Assembly: GCA_014764515.1 (NCBI GenBank)
Contig: JACXWD010000022.1
Location: 1 to 48,043 of the forward strand
DNA length: 48,043 nt
DNA from: Candidatus Polarisedimenticola svalbardensis
Lineage (GTDB): Bacteria > Acidobacteriota > Polarisedimenticolia > Polarisedimenticolales > Polarisedimenticolaceae
Reading direction: 5' to 3'
The translations under genes were made by a program, and so were the position numbers. The notes below the pieces were generated by a model. It was not told where the DNA came from and did no database searches. It saw only the letters and a program-made list of their open reading frames with translations. This document shows, one piece after another, positions 5,413 to 39,479 of the stretch (position 1 is its first letter; every line of letters begins with the position of its first letter).

Positions 5413-5452
5413 TTTCGGGGACAGCAACCGAAACCCGGGTTTCGGGGACACC
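5413..5452. repeat. REP-like GGGGACA palindromic element, copy 1
   Basis: Two direct copies of TTTCGGGGACA (5413-5423 and 5440-5450) flank an 18-base perfect palindrome, CCGAAACCCGGGTTTCGG (5428-5445). A copy differing at about three of 40 positions is at 39397-39436. It lies between convergent genes, as REP elements usually do. Confidence 0.75.
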
Positions 5453-11838: not shown

Positions 11839-12264
11839 ATGACAGTACGCGAACTGATGCAGCAGTCCGTATATACGGTGCGGCCCGACGACATGATCGA
11901 CCGGGTTTTTTTCCTCCTGCATTATGAGAAGATCCGGCACCTCCCGGTTATCGAAGACAAGAAGGTGGTTGGAATCGTCAGCGACCGGGATCTGTACAAG
12001 GCCCTGGGACCGAAAAGCCTGAGCCAGGGAGTGCAGCAGGAGGACGGCGAGACTTCCCTGTACGTCATCCCCCGGAAGGTTCGCAGCATCATGCGTCGCG
12101 GGGTGATTACCATCGGCCCGGATGAAAACGCCTCCAAGGCCGCCACCATGATGGCAAAAAAGAAAATTGGTGCGTTGCCGGTAACCCAGGATGAAAAACT
12201 GGTCGGCATCGTCACAGCAACCGATATCCTTCTGGCATTCGCCAAGGAACACAAGGGGTCTTGA
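11839..12264 (+). CDS. Stand-alone CBS-domain-pair protein
   Basis: A 141-residue protein consisting only of two CBS domains. The first covers about residues 1-60 (TVRPDDMIDRVFFLL, HLPVIEDKKVVGIVSDRDL) and the second about 80-138 (VITIGPDENASKAATMMAKKKIG, LPVTQDEKLVGIVTATDIL). CBS pairs bind adenine nucleotides and act as energy or ligand sensors, but the partner of a free-standing pair cannot be read from sequence. AGGAG stands about 8 bp before the ATG. The quinone oxidoreductase gene begins 7 bp after its stop. Confidence 0.9.
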   Translation: MTVRELMQQSVYTVRPDDMIDRVFFLLHYEKIRHLPVIEDKKVVGIVSDRDLYKALGPKSLSQGVQQEDGETSLYVIPRKVRSIMRRGVITIGPDENASKAATMMAKKKIGALPVTQDEKLVGIVTATDILLAFAKEHKGS

Positions 12265-12271
12265 CGCAACA

Positions 12272-13246
12272 ATGAATCACGCCATAAGAATCCACGATAC
12301 CGGAGGCCCGGATGTCCTGCAGTGGGATGAAACCGATCCAGGAACGCCGGGCCCGGGCCAGGTCCTGCTGCGCCATACCGCCATCGGCCTGAACTTCATC
12401 GACACCTACCATCGCTCCGGCCTTTATCCCCTGCCCGAGTTGCCTGCCGTTCTCGGGCGGGAAGGTGTCGGGAGGGTTGAGGAACTGGGTGAAGGGGTCA
12501 CCGGACTCAAGCCGGGAGACCGGGTGGCGTACCCGCTCCACCCCGGGTCATACAGCGAGGCCAAGCTGATCCCGGCGGATCTTCTGGTGCCGGTCCCTGA
12601 CGGCGTCACGGACAAGCAGGCGGCGGCCATGCTGCTGAAAGGTCTGACCGCTCATTACCTGCTGCGGCGGATTTACCCGGTCGGCCCGGACGACACCATC
12701 CTGATCCATGCCGCAGCCGGTGGAGTCGGCCTCATCGCCTGCCAGTGGGCCAGCCACCTGGGCGCTACGGTCATCGGTACCGTAGGCAGCGACGTCAAGG
12801 CCGATCTGGCACGGGCCAACGGTTGCCGGCACCCGGTGGTGTACGGCCGGGAGAGTTTCGTGGACAAGGTTCGGGAGCTGACCGGCGGCGCGGGGCTGCC
12901 GGTTGTGTACGACTCGGTCGGCAAGGACACCTTCGACGATTCCCTGGACTGCCTGGCTCCCCTGGGAACCATGGTCAGCTTCGGCCAGTCTTCCGGATCG
13001 GTTCCGCCGTTCGACCCGGGGATCCTGGCGAAGAAAGGTTCCCTGTTCCTGACCCGGCCGACCCTGGTGCATTACATCGCCCGGCGGGATGAGCTGCTAT
13101 CGGCCTCCGAAGAACTTTTCGGCCTGGTCGGTTCCGGGGCGATCCGGATCACCATCGGCCAGACCTATCCACTGAAAGACGCCGCCCAGGCCCACCGCGA
13201 TCTGGAAGCGCGCAAAACCTCCGGGTCCACAGTACTCATCCCATAG
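12272..13246 (+). CDS. qor: NADPH:quinone oxidoreductase, zeta-crystallin type
   Basis: A 324-residue medium-chain dehydrogenase/reductase without zinc. The N-terminal catalytic fold carries IGLNFIDTYHRSGLYP, the classic Qor segment. The Rossmann NADPH site is HAAAGGVGLIACQWA, and VYDSVGKDTFDDSL follows. Length is close to E. coli QorA (327). It reduces quinones with NADPH. It lies 7 bp downstream of the CBS-domain gene, probably in one transcript. I used the ATG at 12272; the frame is open further upstream but overlaps the previous gene. A long perfect hairpin follows its stop. Confidence 0.93.
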   Translation: MNHAIRIHDTGGPDVLQWDETDPGTPGPGQVLLRHTAIGLNFIDTYHRSGLYPLPELPAVLGREGVGRVEELGEGVTGLKPGDRVAYPLHPGSYSEAKLIPADLLVPVPDGVTDKQAAAMLLKGLTAHYLLRRIYPVGPDDTILIHAAAGGVGLIACQWASHLGATVIGTVGSDVKADLARANGCRHPVVYGRESFVDKVRELTGGAGLPVVYDSVGKDTFDDSLDCLAPLGTMVSFGQSSGSVPPFDPGILAKKGSLFLTRPTLVHYIARRDELLSASEELFGLVGSGAIRITIGQTYPLKDAAQAHRDLEARKTSGSTVLIP

Positions 13247-13251
13247 CCAGT

Positions 13252-13342
13252 AAATGGGGACATTGCACATTATCTTTTAATAGTTGCAGCATTAAGATCT
13301 CGGAAGACAACTATTAAAAGATAATGTGCAATGTCCCCATTT
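13252..13342. repeat. Perfect 35-bp inverted repeat, MITE- or REP-like hairpin
   Basis: Arms at 13252-13286 and 13308-13342 are exact reverse complements over 35 bases, separated by 21 bases. Ends are AAATGGGGAC and GTCCCCATTT. It lies between qor and the OPT transporter gene, whose AGGAG site begins only a few bases after the right arm, so the folded RNA could affect read-through or translation. Bases 39456-39479 repeat the right terminus with two mismatches in 24. Confidence 0.9.
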
Positions 13343-13355
13343 TTAGGAGACCGCA

Positions 13356-15230
13356 ATGGCGATCCGCCAACTGAACGAGGAACAGGTCCGCACCATGACT
13401 CCGGAGCAGAAGGACCAGTGGTGGCTGGACAACGTCTGGAAAGGGAACATGCCTCAGCTGACCCTGCGGTCGGCCCTCACCGGGATGCTCCTGGGCAGCG
13501 TGCTCAGCCTGACCAACCTGTACATCGGCATTCAGACAGGCTGGACACTGGGAGTGGGGATCACCTCGGTGATCATGGCGTTCGCCGCGTTCAAGGTCCT
13601 GGGCCGGCTCGGCGTCGGCTCGGAGATCTCGATCCTGGAAAACAACGCCATGCAGAGCATCGCCACGTCAGCAGGCTACATGACCGCTCCCCTGGTGACT
13701 TCCCTGGCGGCGTACATGATCATTACCGGCAAGTTGATCCCTATCGGCATCACCATCGTCTGGATGATCAGCCTGTCGATCCTGGGTGTCCTGTTCGCCT
13801 TCCCCCTCAAGCGCAGGTTCATCAACGATGAACAGTACCCGTTCCCCGAAGGGCGGGCCTGCGGCGTCGTTCTGGATGCTCTCCACGGGGATGACGCCCG
13901 GGAAGGGATCTTCAAGGCCAAGCTCCTGGCGTCCGCCGGCGGTCTGTCGGCGCTCATCGAACTGATGCGCAGCGAGAAGGTCATGGAACTTGTCCATATG
14001 CGCTGGTTGACCCTGCCCGGTCACTGGAGTGATCTGCTGTACAAGTTCTCAACGCCGTCGATCCGGGGGATCAAGCTTTCCGACCTGACCATCAACCTGG
14101 ACTCCTCCATCGTCATGGTCGCCACCGGCGGGTTGATGGGGATCCGGGCCGGCATGTCCCTCCTGCTGGGGGCGGTGATCAACTATTGCTTCCTGGCGCC
14201 CTGGGCGATGGAGCAGGGCATCATCGAGGGCACAGGTTTCCGGGCCATCCTGACCTGGGGGATGTGGGGCGGCGTCTCCATGATGACCACCGCGGCCATC
14301 TTCGGATTCTTTTCCAAGCCACAGGTTTTCGTCCAGGCGTTCAAGGGTCTTGTCGGGCGGCGAGAACGCACCGTCGATCCGGTCCGGCATATCGAACTCC
14401 CCGGCCGGATCTCCGCCATCGGAATCCCGCTGGTCGGCGCGTTCGTCGTCTGGATGGCCTGGAAGTTCTTCGGCATCGACATCTGGCTCGGCATGATCGC
14501 CATCCCGCTGGTGTTCATCTTCGCCACCATCGGGGCGACCTCCGCCGGCCTGACATCCATCACGCCGACCAGCGCCCTGGGTTACCTGACCCAGACCACG
14601 TTCAGCGTGCTTTCCCCGGGAAAAATCACCACCAACGTCATGACCGCAGCGATCACCGGCGAGGTTGCCAGCAACACCTCCAACCTGTTGATGGACATCA
14701 AACCCGGGTACATGCTGGGCGGCAAGCCGCGGCACCAGGCCCTGGGCCATGTGCTAGGCATATTCGCCGGCGCCTTCGTGGCCATCCCGGTGTTCTACGC
14801 CATGATCCATTACGATGCAGCCAACCTGATGTCCGATGACCTCCCGATGCCGGGAGCGCAGGCCTGGCGGGCGGTGGCCGAAGTGCTCACCAAAGGCCTG
14901 TCGTTCCTGCATCCGACCGCCCGCTATGCCGTGTTCATCGGCGGCGCCATCGGGATTCTGTTCGAGATCCTGAAGAAGGTCACGAAAAACCGTTTCCCCC
15001 TCTCTGCCGTCGGCGTCGGCCTCGCCTTCGTCATCAACTTCCACACCAGCCTGAGCATGGGGCTGGGGGCGATCCTGTTCTGGGTTCTGGGAAAGGCCTA
15101 CCGCAACAAGGAAGGAAGCCTGGCCCGGAAACTCTGGGTTGAGAACCAGGAAACACTCTGCGCCGGCGCTATCGCCGGCGGCGCCATCATCGGCATTGCC
15201 ATCATCCTGGTGGAAGCCTCGTCAGGTTAG
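13356..15230 (+). CDS. OPT-family oligopeptide/metal-chelate transporter
   Basis: A 624-residue inner-membrane protein with about 14 hydrophobic segments, matching bacterial members of the oligopeptide transporter (OPT) family. Recognisable stretches are LTLRSALTGMLLGSVLSLTN near residue 35, then NNAMQSIATSAGYM, EQYPFPEGRACGVVLDAL and GKITTNVMTAAITGEVASN. OPT proteins take up small peptides or metal-siderophore complexes with protons; the substrate is not determined. Ribosome site AGGAG is 8 bp before the ATG, directly after the long hairpin. A terminator-like hairpin follows the stop. Confidence 0.93.
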   Translation: MAIRQLNEEQVRTMTPEQKDQWWLDNVWKGNMPQLTLRSALTGMLLGSVLSLTNLYIGIQTGWTLGVGITSVIMAFAAFKVLGRLGVGSEISILENNAMQSIATSAGYMTAPLVTSLAAYMIITGKLIPIGITIVWMISLSILGVLFAFPLKRRFINDEQYPFPEGRACGVVLDALHGDDAREGIFKAKLLASAGGLSALIELMRSEKVMELVHMRWLTLPGHWSDLLYKFSTPSIRGIKLSDLTINLDSSIVMVATGGLMGIRAGMSLLLGAVINYCFLAPWAMEQGIIEGTGFRAILTWGMWGGVSMMTTAAIFGFFSKPQVFVQAFKGLVGRRERTVDPVRHIELPGRISAIGIPLVGAFVVWMAWKFFGIDIWLGMIAIPLVFIFATIGATSAGLTSITPTSALGYLTQTTFSVLSPGKITTNVMTAAITGEVASNTSNLLMDIKPGYMLGGKPRHQALGHVLGIFAGAFVAIPVFYAMIHYDAANLMSDDLPMPGAQAWRAVAEVLTKGLSFLHPTARYAVFIGGAIGILFEILKKVTKNRFPLSAVGVGLAFVINFHTSLSMGLGAILFWVLGKAYRNKEGSLARKLWVENQETLCAGAIAGGAIIGIAIILVEASSG

Positions 15231-17479: not shown

Positions 17480-17506
17480 GCGAAAAGGGGCCTGACCCCT
17501 TTTCGC
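17480..17506. repeat. Perfect 11-bp hairpin GCGAAAAGGGG/CCCCTTTTCGC
   Basis: Arms at 17480-17490 and 17496-17506 pair perfectly around a CCTGA loop, just after the DUF1501 stop (minus strand). A partial extra copy of the left arm (GCGAAAAGGG) precedes it at 17471. It could terminate the DUF1800-DUF1501 transcript or be a REP-like unit. Confidence 0.7.
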
Positions 17507-39396: not shown

Positions 39397-39436
39397 ATTC
39401 GGGGACAGGCACCGAAACCCGGGTTTCGGGGACACC
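39397..39436. repeat. REP-like GGGGACA palindromic element, copy 2
   Basis: Nearly identical to the element at 5413-5452 (about three differences in 40 bases), with the same 18-base palindrome at 39412-39429 and flanking TTCGGGGACA copies. It lies in the divergent gap between the cystathionine beta-synthase and aconitase-family genes. Confidence 0.75.
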
Positions 39437-39455
39437 CTCCTGTAGAAATTGAAAT

Positions 39456-39479
39456 ATAAAGTGGAATGTCCCCATTTTT
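39456..39479. repeat. Solo terminus of the 13.3-kb inverted-repeat element
   Basis: Matches 13321-13344 at 22 of 24 bases, ending AATGTCCCCATTTTT. No matching left arm is present within the gap, so it is either a remnant or part of a composite with the REP-like copy just upstream. Confidence 0.55.

Follow-up and report, generated by a model that had tools for sequence, protein, structure and literature searches.

A perfect 35-bp palindrome ahead of an OPT transporter gene is most likely one of dozens of hairpin repeats dependent on a single-copy Y1 transposase

The palindrome that separates a qor-like gene from an OPT transporter gene in the window (the whole stretch of 48,043 nt analysed, from Candidatus Polarisedimenticola svalbardensis) is most likely one of dozens of small hairpin repeats that depend on a single-copy Y1 transposase of the TIRYT/RAYT type. 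It is very probably a non-autonomous dimer of the terminal inverted repeats (TIRs) of a TIRYT-type Y1 tyrosine transposase, and thus the TIRYT counterpart of a REPIN or a MITE.

In the repeat search, the highest-ranking inverted repeat of the window consists of two 35-nt arms with 100% complementarity around a loop of 21 nt (Table 1). The flawless stem described by the first-pass annotation was therefore reproduced in its arms, length and pairing. However, the gap between the stem and the AGGAG of the OPT gene is 2 nt rather than the 8 bp given there. On the other side, the stop codon of the qor-like gene, whose true start may be more internal, lies 5 nt ahead of the hairpin. The predicted RNA fold has an energy of -56.7 kcal/mol, compared with -22.2 +/- 3.3 kcal/mol for shuffled sequences (z = -10.5). 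For a single arm the predicted energy is -1.2 to -1.8 kcal/mol, which is no better than for its shuffles. A chance origin of the inverted repeat is excluded both by its length and by its genome-wide copies.

Table 1. Features around the hairpin, a related end in the window, and the four Y1 transposase genes of the genome
Feature	Coordinates	Strand	Remarks
Zinc-type quinone/alcohol dehydrogenase gene (qor-like), upstream	12191..13246	+	PF00107/PF08240
Left arm of the proposed TIR dimer, AAATGGGGACATTGCACATTATCTTTTAATAGTTG	13252..13286	+	Repeat search; terminus recurs genome-wide
Loop, 21 nt	13287..13307	.	Unlike loops of other copies; diverged from the sister species' loop
Right arm	13308..13342	-	Perfect reverse complement of left arm
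Shine-Dalgarno AGGAG of OPT gene	13345..13349	+	Mostly unpaired in RNA fold
OPT-family transporter gene, downstream	13356..15230	+	ATG at 13356; PF03169, E=1.5e-67
Single end of the window hairpin's family, CCAC subtype, AAATGGGGACATTCCACTTTATATTTCAAT	39448..39477	-	Minus-strand reading
C10 Y1 gene	C10:12314-12649		Inside TIR pair C10:11959-12832; flanking TIR GGGGACATTGCAC; window hairpin's family
C54 Y1 gene	C54:6106-6432		Flanking TIR TTTCGGGGACAGGCAC; family of window 5414 and 39398
C15 Y1 gene	C15:25266-25607		Flanking TIR GGGGTCAGGCCCC; family of window 17480-17506
C180 Y1 gene			Flanking TIR GGGGGACCGTCCCGG

To estimate the abundance of the family, pattern searches were run against the 3.69-Mb genome to which the window belongs (G000). 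There were 57 occurrences of the terminus AATGGGGACATTGCACNTTA with at most three mismatches and 38 exact occurrences of GGGGACATTGCAC, and none of either in the reversed control. The majority of the 57 ends are arranged as inverted pairs of 60-160 bp with unrelated loops. The element is thus multicopy, and the earlier suggestion of a MITE-like palindromic element was borne out by the search with the arm sequence. The 24-base right terminus had also been said to recur at 39456-39479. This copy is indeed related, but it matches at 22 of the 24 positions and is not exact; it is 88% identical to the hairpin over 32 nt, shares the exact stretch AATGTCCCCATTTTT with it and belongs to the GGGGACATTCCACTTTA subtype. 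In addition, the hairpin ends had been related to other intergenic repeats of the window. These repeats are of the same kind, but those beginning with TTTCGGGGACAG form a separate family with its own Y1 gene.

Several other repeats were seen in the window. The TTTCGGGGACAG...GGGTTTCGGGGACACC repeats at 5414-5452 and 39398-39436 are 95% alike and belong to the second Y1 family (that of C54), and the hairpin GCGAAAAGGGG CCTGA CCCCTTTTCGC at 17480-17506 belongs to the third (that of C15). Positions 1-914 hold 132-bp units in tandem, which probably code for a cysteine- and aspartate-rich repeat protein.

Among the 40 relatives searched, the exact terminus was present only in the one congener, the sister species G001. 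Meanwhile, hairpins with the GGGGACATT tip were found in 7 of 396 genomes of the phylum, for instance the GGGGACATTCTGCTTTTTCC family in G007, which is of the same order. This kind of hairpin is therefore wider than the genus, and the inner sequence is lineage-specific.

The copies abut stop codons. The genes flanking 42 copies are co-directional in 24 cases, convergent in 14 and divergent in 4, although these orientations were assigned with a rough ORF heuristic, which may have erred at some copies and most of all at the divergent ones. The placement of REPs has been described likewise (PMC3733652). We considered whether the hairpin is instead a functional RNA element (a bidirectional terminator, an RNase III site or a stabiliser of the mRNA 5' end) selected for qor/OPT expression. 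The highly stable fold, the Shine-Dalgarno sequence just beyond the stem, and the GGGGAC/GUCCCC base followed by a U-rich tail would agree with such a role. So would the sister species, which keeps the stem while the loop diverges, and the transition-type mismatches at co-directional sites, which are G-U in 17 cases vs A-C in 8 on the sense strand. However, the same sequence adjoins dozens of unrelated genes, and an efficient terminator at the co-directional sites would silence the next gene. Furthermore, 79 of 121 arm mismatches are of the transversion type, and the wobble bias is too weak for selection at the RNA level to be read from it. The search of Rfam gave no family at the gathering score; it gave only sub-threshold matches to microRNA precursors, such as any long hairpin gives. 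Promoter and terminator scans found nothing. An intrinsic terminator has a GC-rich stem of about 5-14 bp, a small loop and a T run, which differs from the 35-bp stem and 21-nt loop found here. According to the first-pass annotation, a single copy conserved at the same site in distant relatives would point to a regulatory structure. In fact the hairpin has many copies, and no relative read outside the genus has the hairpin or a qor neighbour before OPT; a conserved regulatory structure of OPT was thus rejected beyond the genus. Taken together, we regard selection for qor/OPT expression as unlikely. It is plausible that the predicted hairpin affects termination, RNA stability or RNase III cutting at OPT. 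Any such effect would be a by-product of where the elements survive and not the reason for the family.

The result of the comparison with G001 showed that this species carries an 89-bp hairpin with 35-bp arms in the same qor-OPT gap. The recent insertion that had been proposed was thus rejected, since the orthologous element is there with a diverged loop. The arms of the two species differ at two positions, and both are changed on both arms (GG->CC and AA->TT), with no asymmetric change. By a count made by eye, the loops share 12 of 21 positions (about 57%); identity in the flanks is about 84%. Over seven alignable site pairs with 217 stem positions, there were 7 symmetric double changes, compared with about 0.5 expected if the arms were independent (P about 1e-6). 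Furthermore, across 42 dimers, 84.6% of inner positions match between the two arms of one element, compared with 69.7% for arms of different elements (0 of 10000 permutations). Compensatory change has been reported for REPINs (PMC3116915), and symmetric changes and perfect stems are known to arise by template switching (PMC8794818). The perfect stem with a drifting loop could have either of two reasons. First, a well-paired stem may be the sole substrate. Second, one arm may be corrected from the other by template switching. If a replication template switch had created the palindrome on the spot, with no mobile element involved, the same symmetric changes would be expected. Such a process can account for the upkeep of the arms, but it leaves the common terminus at dozens of sites and the Y1 gene with the same ends unexplained; as the origin of the family it is refuted by the copy number, and we consider it extremely improbable.

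The genome includes four Y1_Tnp genes, each single-copy and each within its own inverted GGGG-type terminal repeats. A Y1/RAYT-type transposase, which the first-pass annotation had proposed to look for, is therefore present, and it is bounded by the termini of the hairpin family itself. This C10 gene is the likely source of the family's mobility. The four genes share at most 50% identity with one another. All of them have positional counterparts in G001, with 59, 68, 63 and 83% amino-acid identity, and the two proteins adjoining the C10 locus are 84 and 74% identical between the two species. Thus, the Y1 genes keep their positions as single copies, and the C10 gene evolves faster than its neighbours. 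RAYTs have also been reported as evolving fast (PMC2817692).

The NCBIfam RAYT model (NF047646, REP_Tyr_transpos) is the only or best match of the Y1 proteins, at 67-71 bits, which is below its cut-off of 80 and speaks against the preferred explanation; its scores far exceed those of the IS200 model. Among solved structures, TnpAREP 4ER8 is the only relative by sequence (E=1.8e-7). The proteins have the motifs NHFH/NHVH, W[EDQ], Y[VI]E.NP and WSS with a HuH-Y spacing of 59-61. In the C10 protein these are NHFH, WE, YVERNP and WSS with a spacing of 60, and its Y motif is a variant of the published form. By motifs and spacing, the genes would fit TnpAY1 subclass 2.1 and the TIRYT class. This subclass is defined by NHVH or NH[YF]H, W[EQ], a YIELNP-like motif, SS and a HuH-Y spacing of 58-67; it holds 20 of 26 TIRYT transposases, with ends GGGG[AT][CG]A[CG], and no REPs were found for it (PMC6006769). 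TIRYTs were described by Di Nocera et al. (2013) as RAYT-like genes within terminal inverted repeats (GGGGWSAS), the TIR families being dispersed, moderately abundant and frequently dimers, with Acidobacteria as one defined group (PMC3733652). Since the motifs and spacing, the bounding TIRs and the dispersed dimers match these descriptions, "TIR dimer of a TIRYT" is the best name for the hairpin, which would work in the manner of a REPIN.

The sites filled in only one of the two species indicate that the family has moved. The element at C41:4136 is found in G000 only, and those at C28:1627, C124, C188, C44 and C49 are found in G001 only, the orthologous gap in the other species being without the element. 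In addition, the G001 element at C5 stands against a bare GGGGACATGTCCCC stub in G000. Mobility is thus suggested by the copy number and by presence and absence between the species. At C13:25919-25938 (L231) in G000, a bare palindrome AATGGGGACATGTCCCCATA lies opposite a full G001 hairpin; it may be a collapsed element or an ancestral tip. No target duplication was visible at the flanks or in the empty-site comparisons, as expected for Y1 enzymes. An ordinary DDE-transposase MITE would likewise be short, palindromic and non-coding with terminal inverted repeats, but it should show a target duplication; furthermore, the gene within the same GGGGACATTGCAC ends is a Y1_Tnp gene and the tip GGGGACAT agrees with the Y1-linked GGGGWSAS class at 7 of 8 positions, so there is very little chance that the hairpin is such a MITE.

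We also found that the type of the occupant repeat differs between the species at about ten shared gaps, although these assignments are by-eye readings of pairwise alignments, some of which are poorly aligned within the element. GCAC ends in G000 correspond to CCGC ends in G001 at C150, C13, C179, C165 and the C10 Y1 locus. Other swaps, some to the GGGGTCAGGCACC and GGGGACAGGCACC families, were seen at C7, C38, C54, C156 and C126. The flanking repeats differ at two of the four Y1 loci, and the G001 orthologue of the C10 gene is flanked by another TIR, CCGCTTTT. Meanwhile, the C15 family has GGCCCC in 16 of 22 exact copies in G000 and GGCACC in 25 of 25 in G001, in each species as in the flanks of its Y1 gene. 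The repeats follow the local Y1 gene, which is the known 'orthoswitch', that is, differing repeats beside orthologous Y1 genes (PMC3686654). However, the G001 genome has 33 GCAC-type ends although its C10 orthologue has CCGCTTTT flanks, and this counts against the preferred explanation. Tentatively, and with low confidence, we propose that the repeat sites are long-lived slots whose existing copies are converted in place to the new type, here from GCAC to CCGC and even to other TIR families, when the Y1 gene and its repeat switch. The route might be excision followed by return of the element to that site, or hairpin-templated correction, instead of loss and fresh insertion elsewhere. Switching within a shared gap hints at such in-place conversion, and independent insertion into a few tolerated gaps could also produce it. 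The two species offer a natural experiment, with shared sites, four shared Y1 loci and different repeat sequences. Two questions are thereby made testable, namely how the pairing of the arms is kept up and how the repeats of a genome track a change in the transposase.

At C11:2231-2998 (L042) in G000, two ends of the window hairpin's family enclose a vapBC-like toxin-antitoxin pair. The orthologous site in G001 lacks the pair; its left end is retained, and its right side carries another repeat. As a general reading, mobile cargo carried between widely spaced ends was rejected: the vapBC pair is missing in G001, but G001 conserves the ORF that the ends at C156:5930-6451 enclose. Being flanked by two ends is thus not in itself a sign of cargo.

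Returning to the TIR dimer, the literature on RAYT/TnpAREP and IS200/IS605 suggests how it might move. The Y1 enzyme would act in trans on the single-stranded, folded dimer. The HUH-tyrosine chemistry would cut at the dimer ends, and the element would be rejoined elsewhere with no target duplication. Copies would persist where they are least harmful, after stop codons and between convergent or co-directional genes, and the stem would stay perfect within a copy while the loop drifts.

Compared with known systems, the hairpins share with IS200/IS605 elements (IS608, ISDra2) the HUH-Y1 catalytic core and the absence of target duplication. However, the Y1 genes here are single-copy and at orthologous sites in both species, with no multiple near-identical transposase-bearing copies among the four, and the ends are long inverted repeats and not subterminal hairpins. 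The likeness to REPINs and RAYTs (Bertels and Rainey 2011, PMC3116915; Nunvar et al. 2010, PMC2817692) is closer. In both there are non-autonomous inverted doublets with long hairpins, variable spacers, compensatory changes and intergenic positions, and each repeat family is linked to a single-copy, fast-evolving Y1 gene. They differ in that the arm does not end in GTAG or GTGG, a single arm is not self-palindromic and forms no stable hairpin, and the copies number only in the tens. As in TIRYTs/TIRtrons, a Y1 gene lies within long inverted TIRs and TIR dimers are dispersed, and the sibling-family tips GGGGACAG and GGGGTCAG match GGGGWSAS fully. The tip of the window hairpin's own family, GGGGACAT, departs from the published form by one letter, which counts against the preferred explanation. 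In contrast to subclass 2.1, which is listed without REP-like sequences (PMC6006769), the flanking repeats here are widely dispersed, and unlike the TIRtrons described, four coexist in this genome with several of their TIR families dispersed. Thus, an odd intergenic palindrome is now very probably placed in the TIRYT class, on which little has been published beyond the first description.
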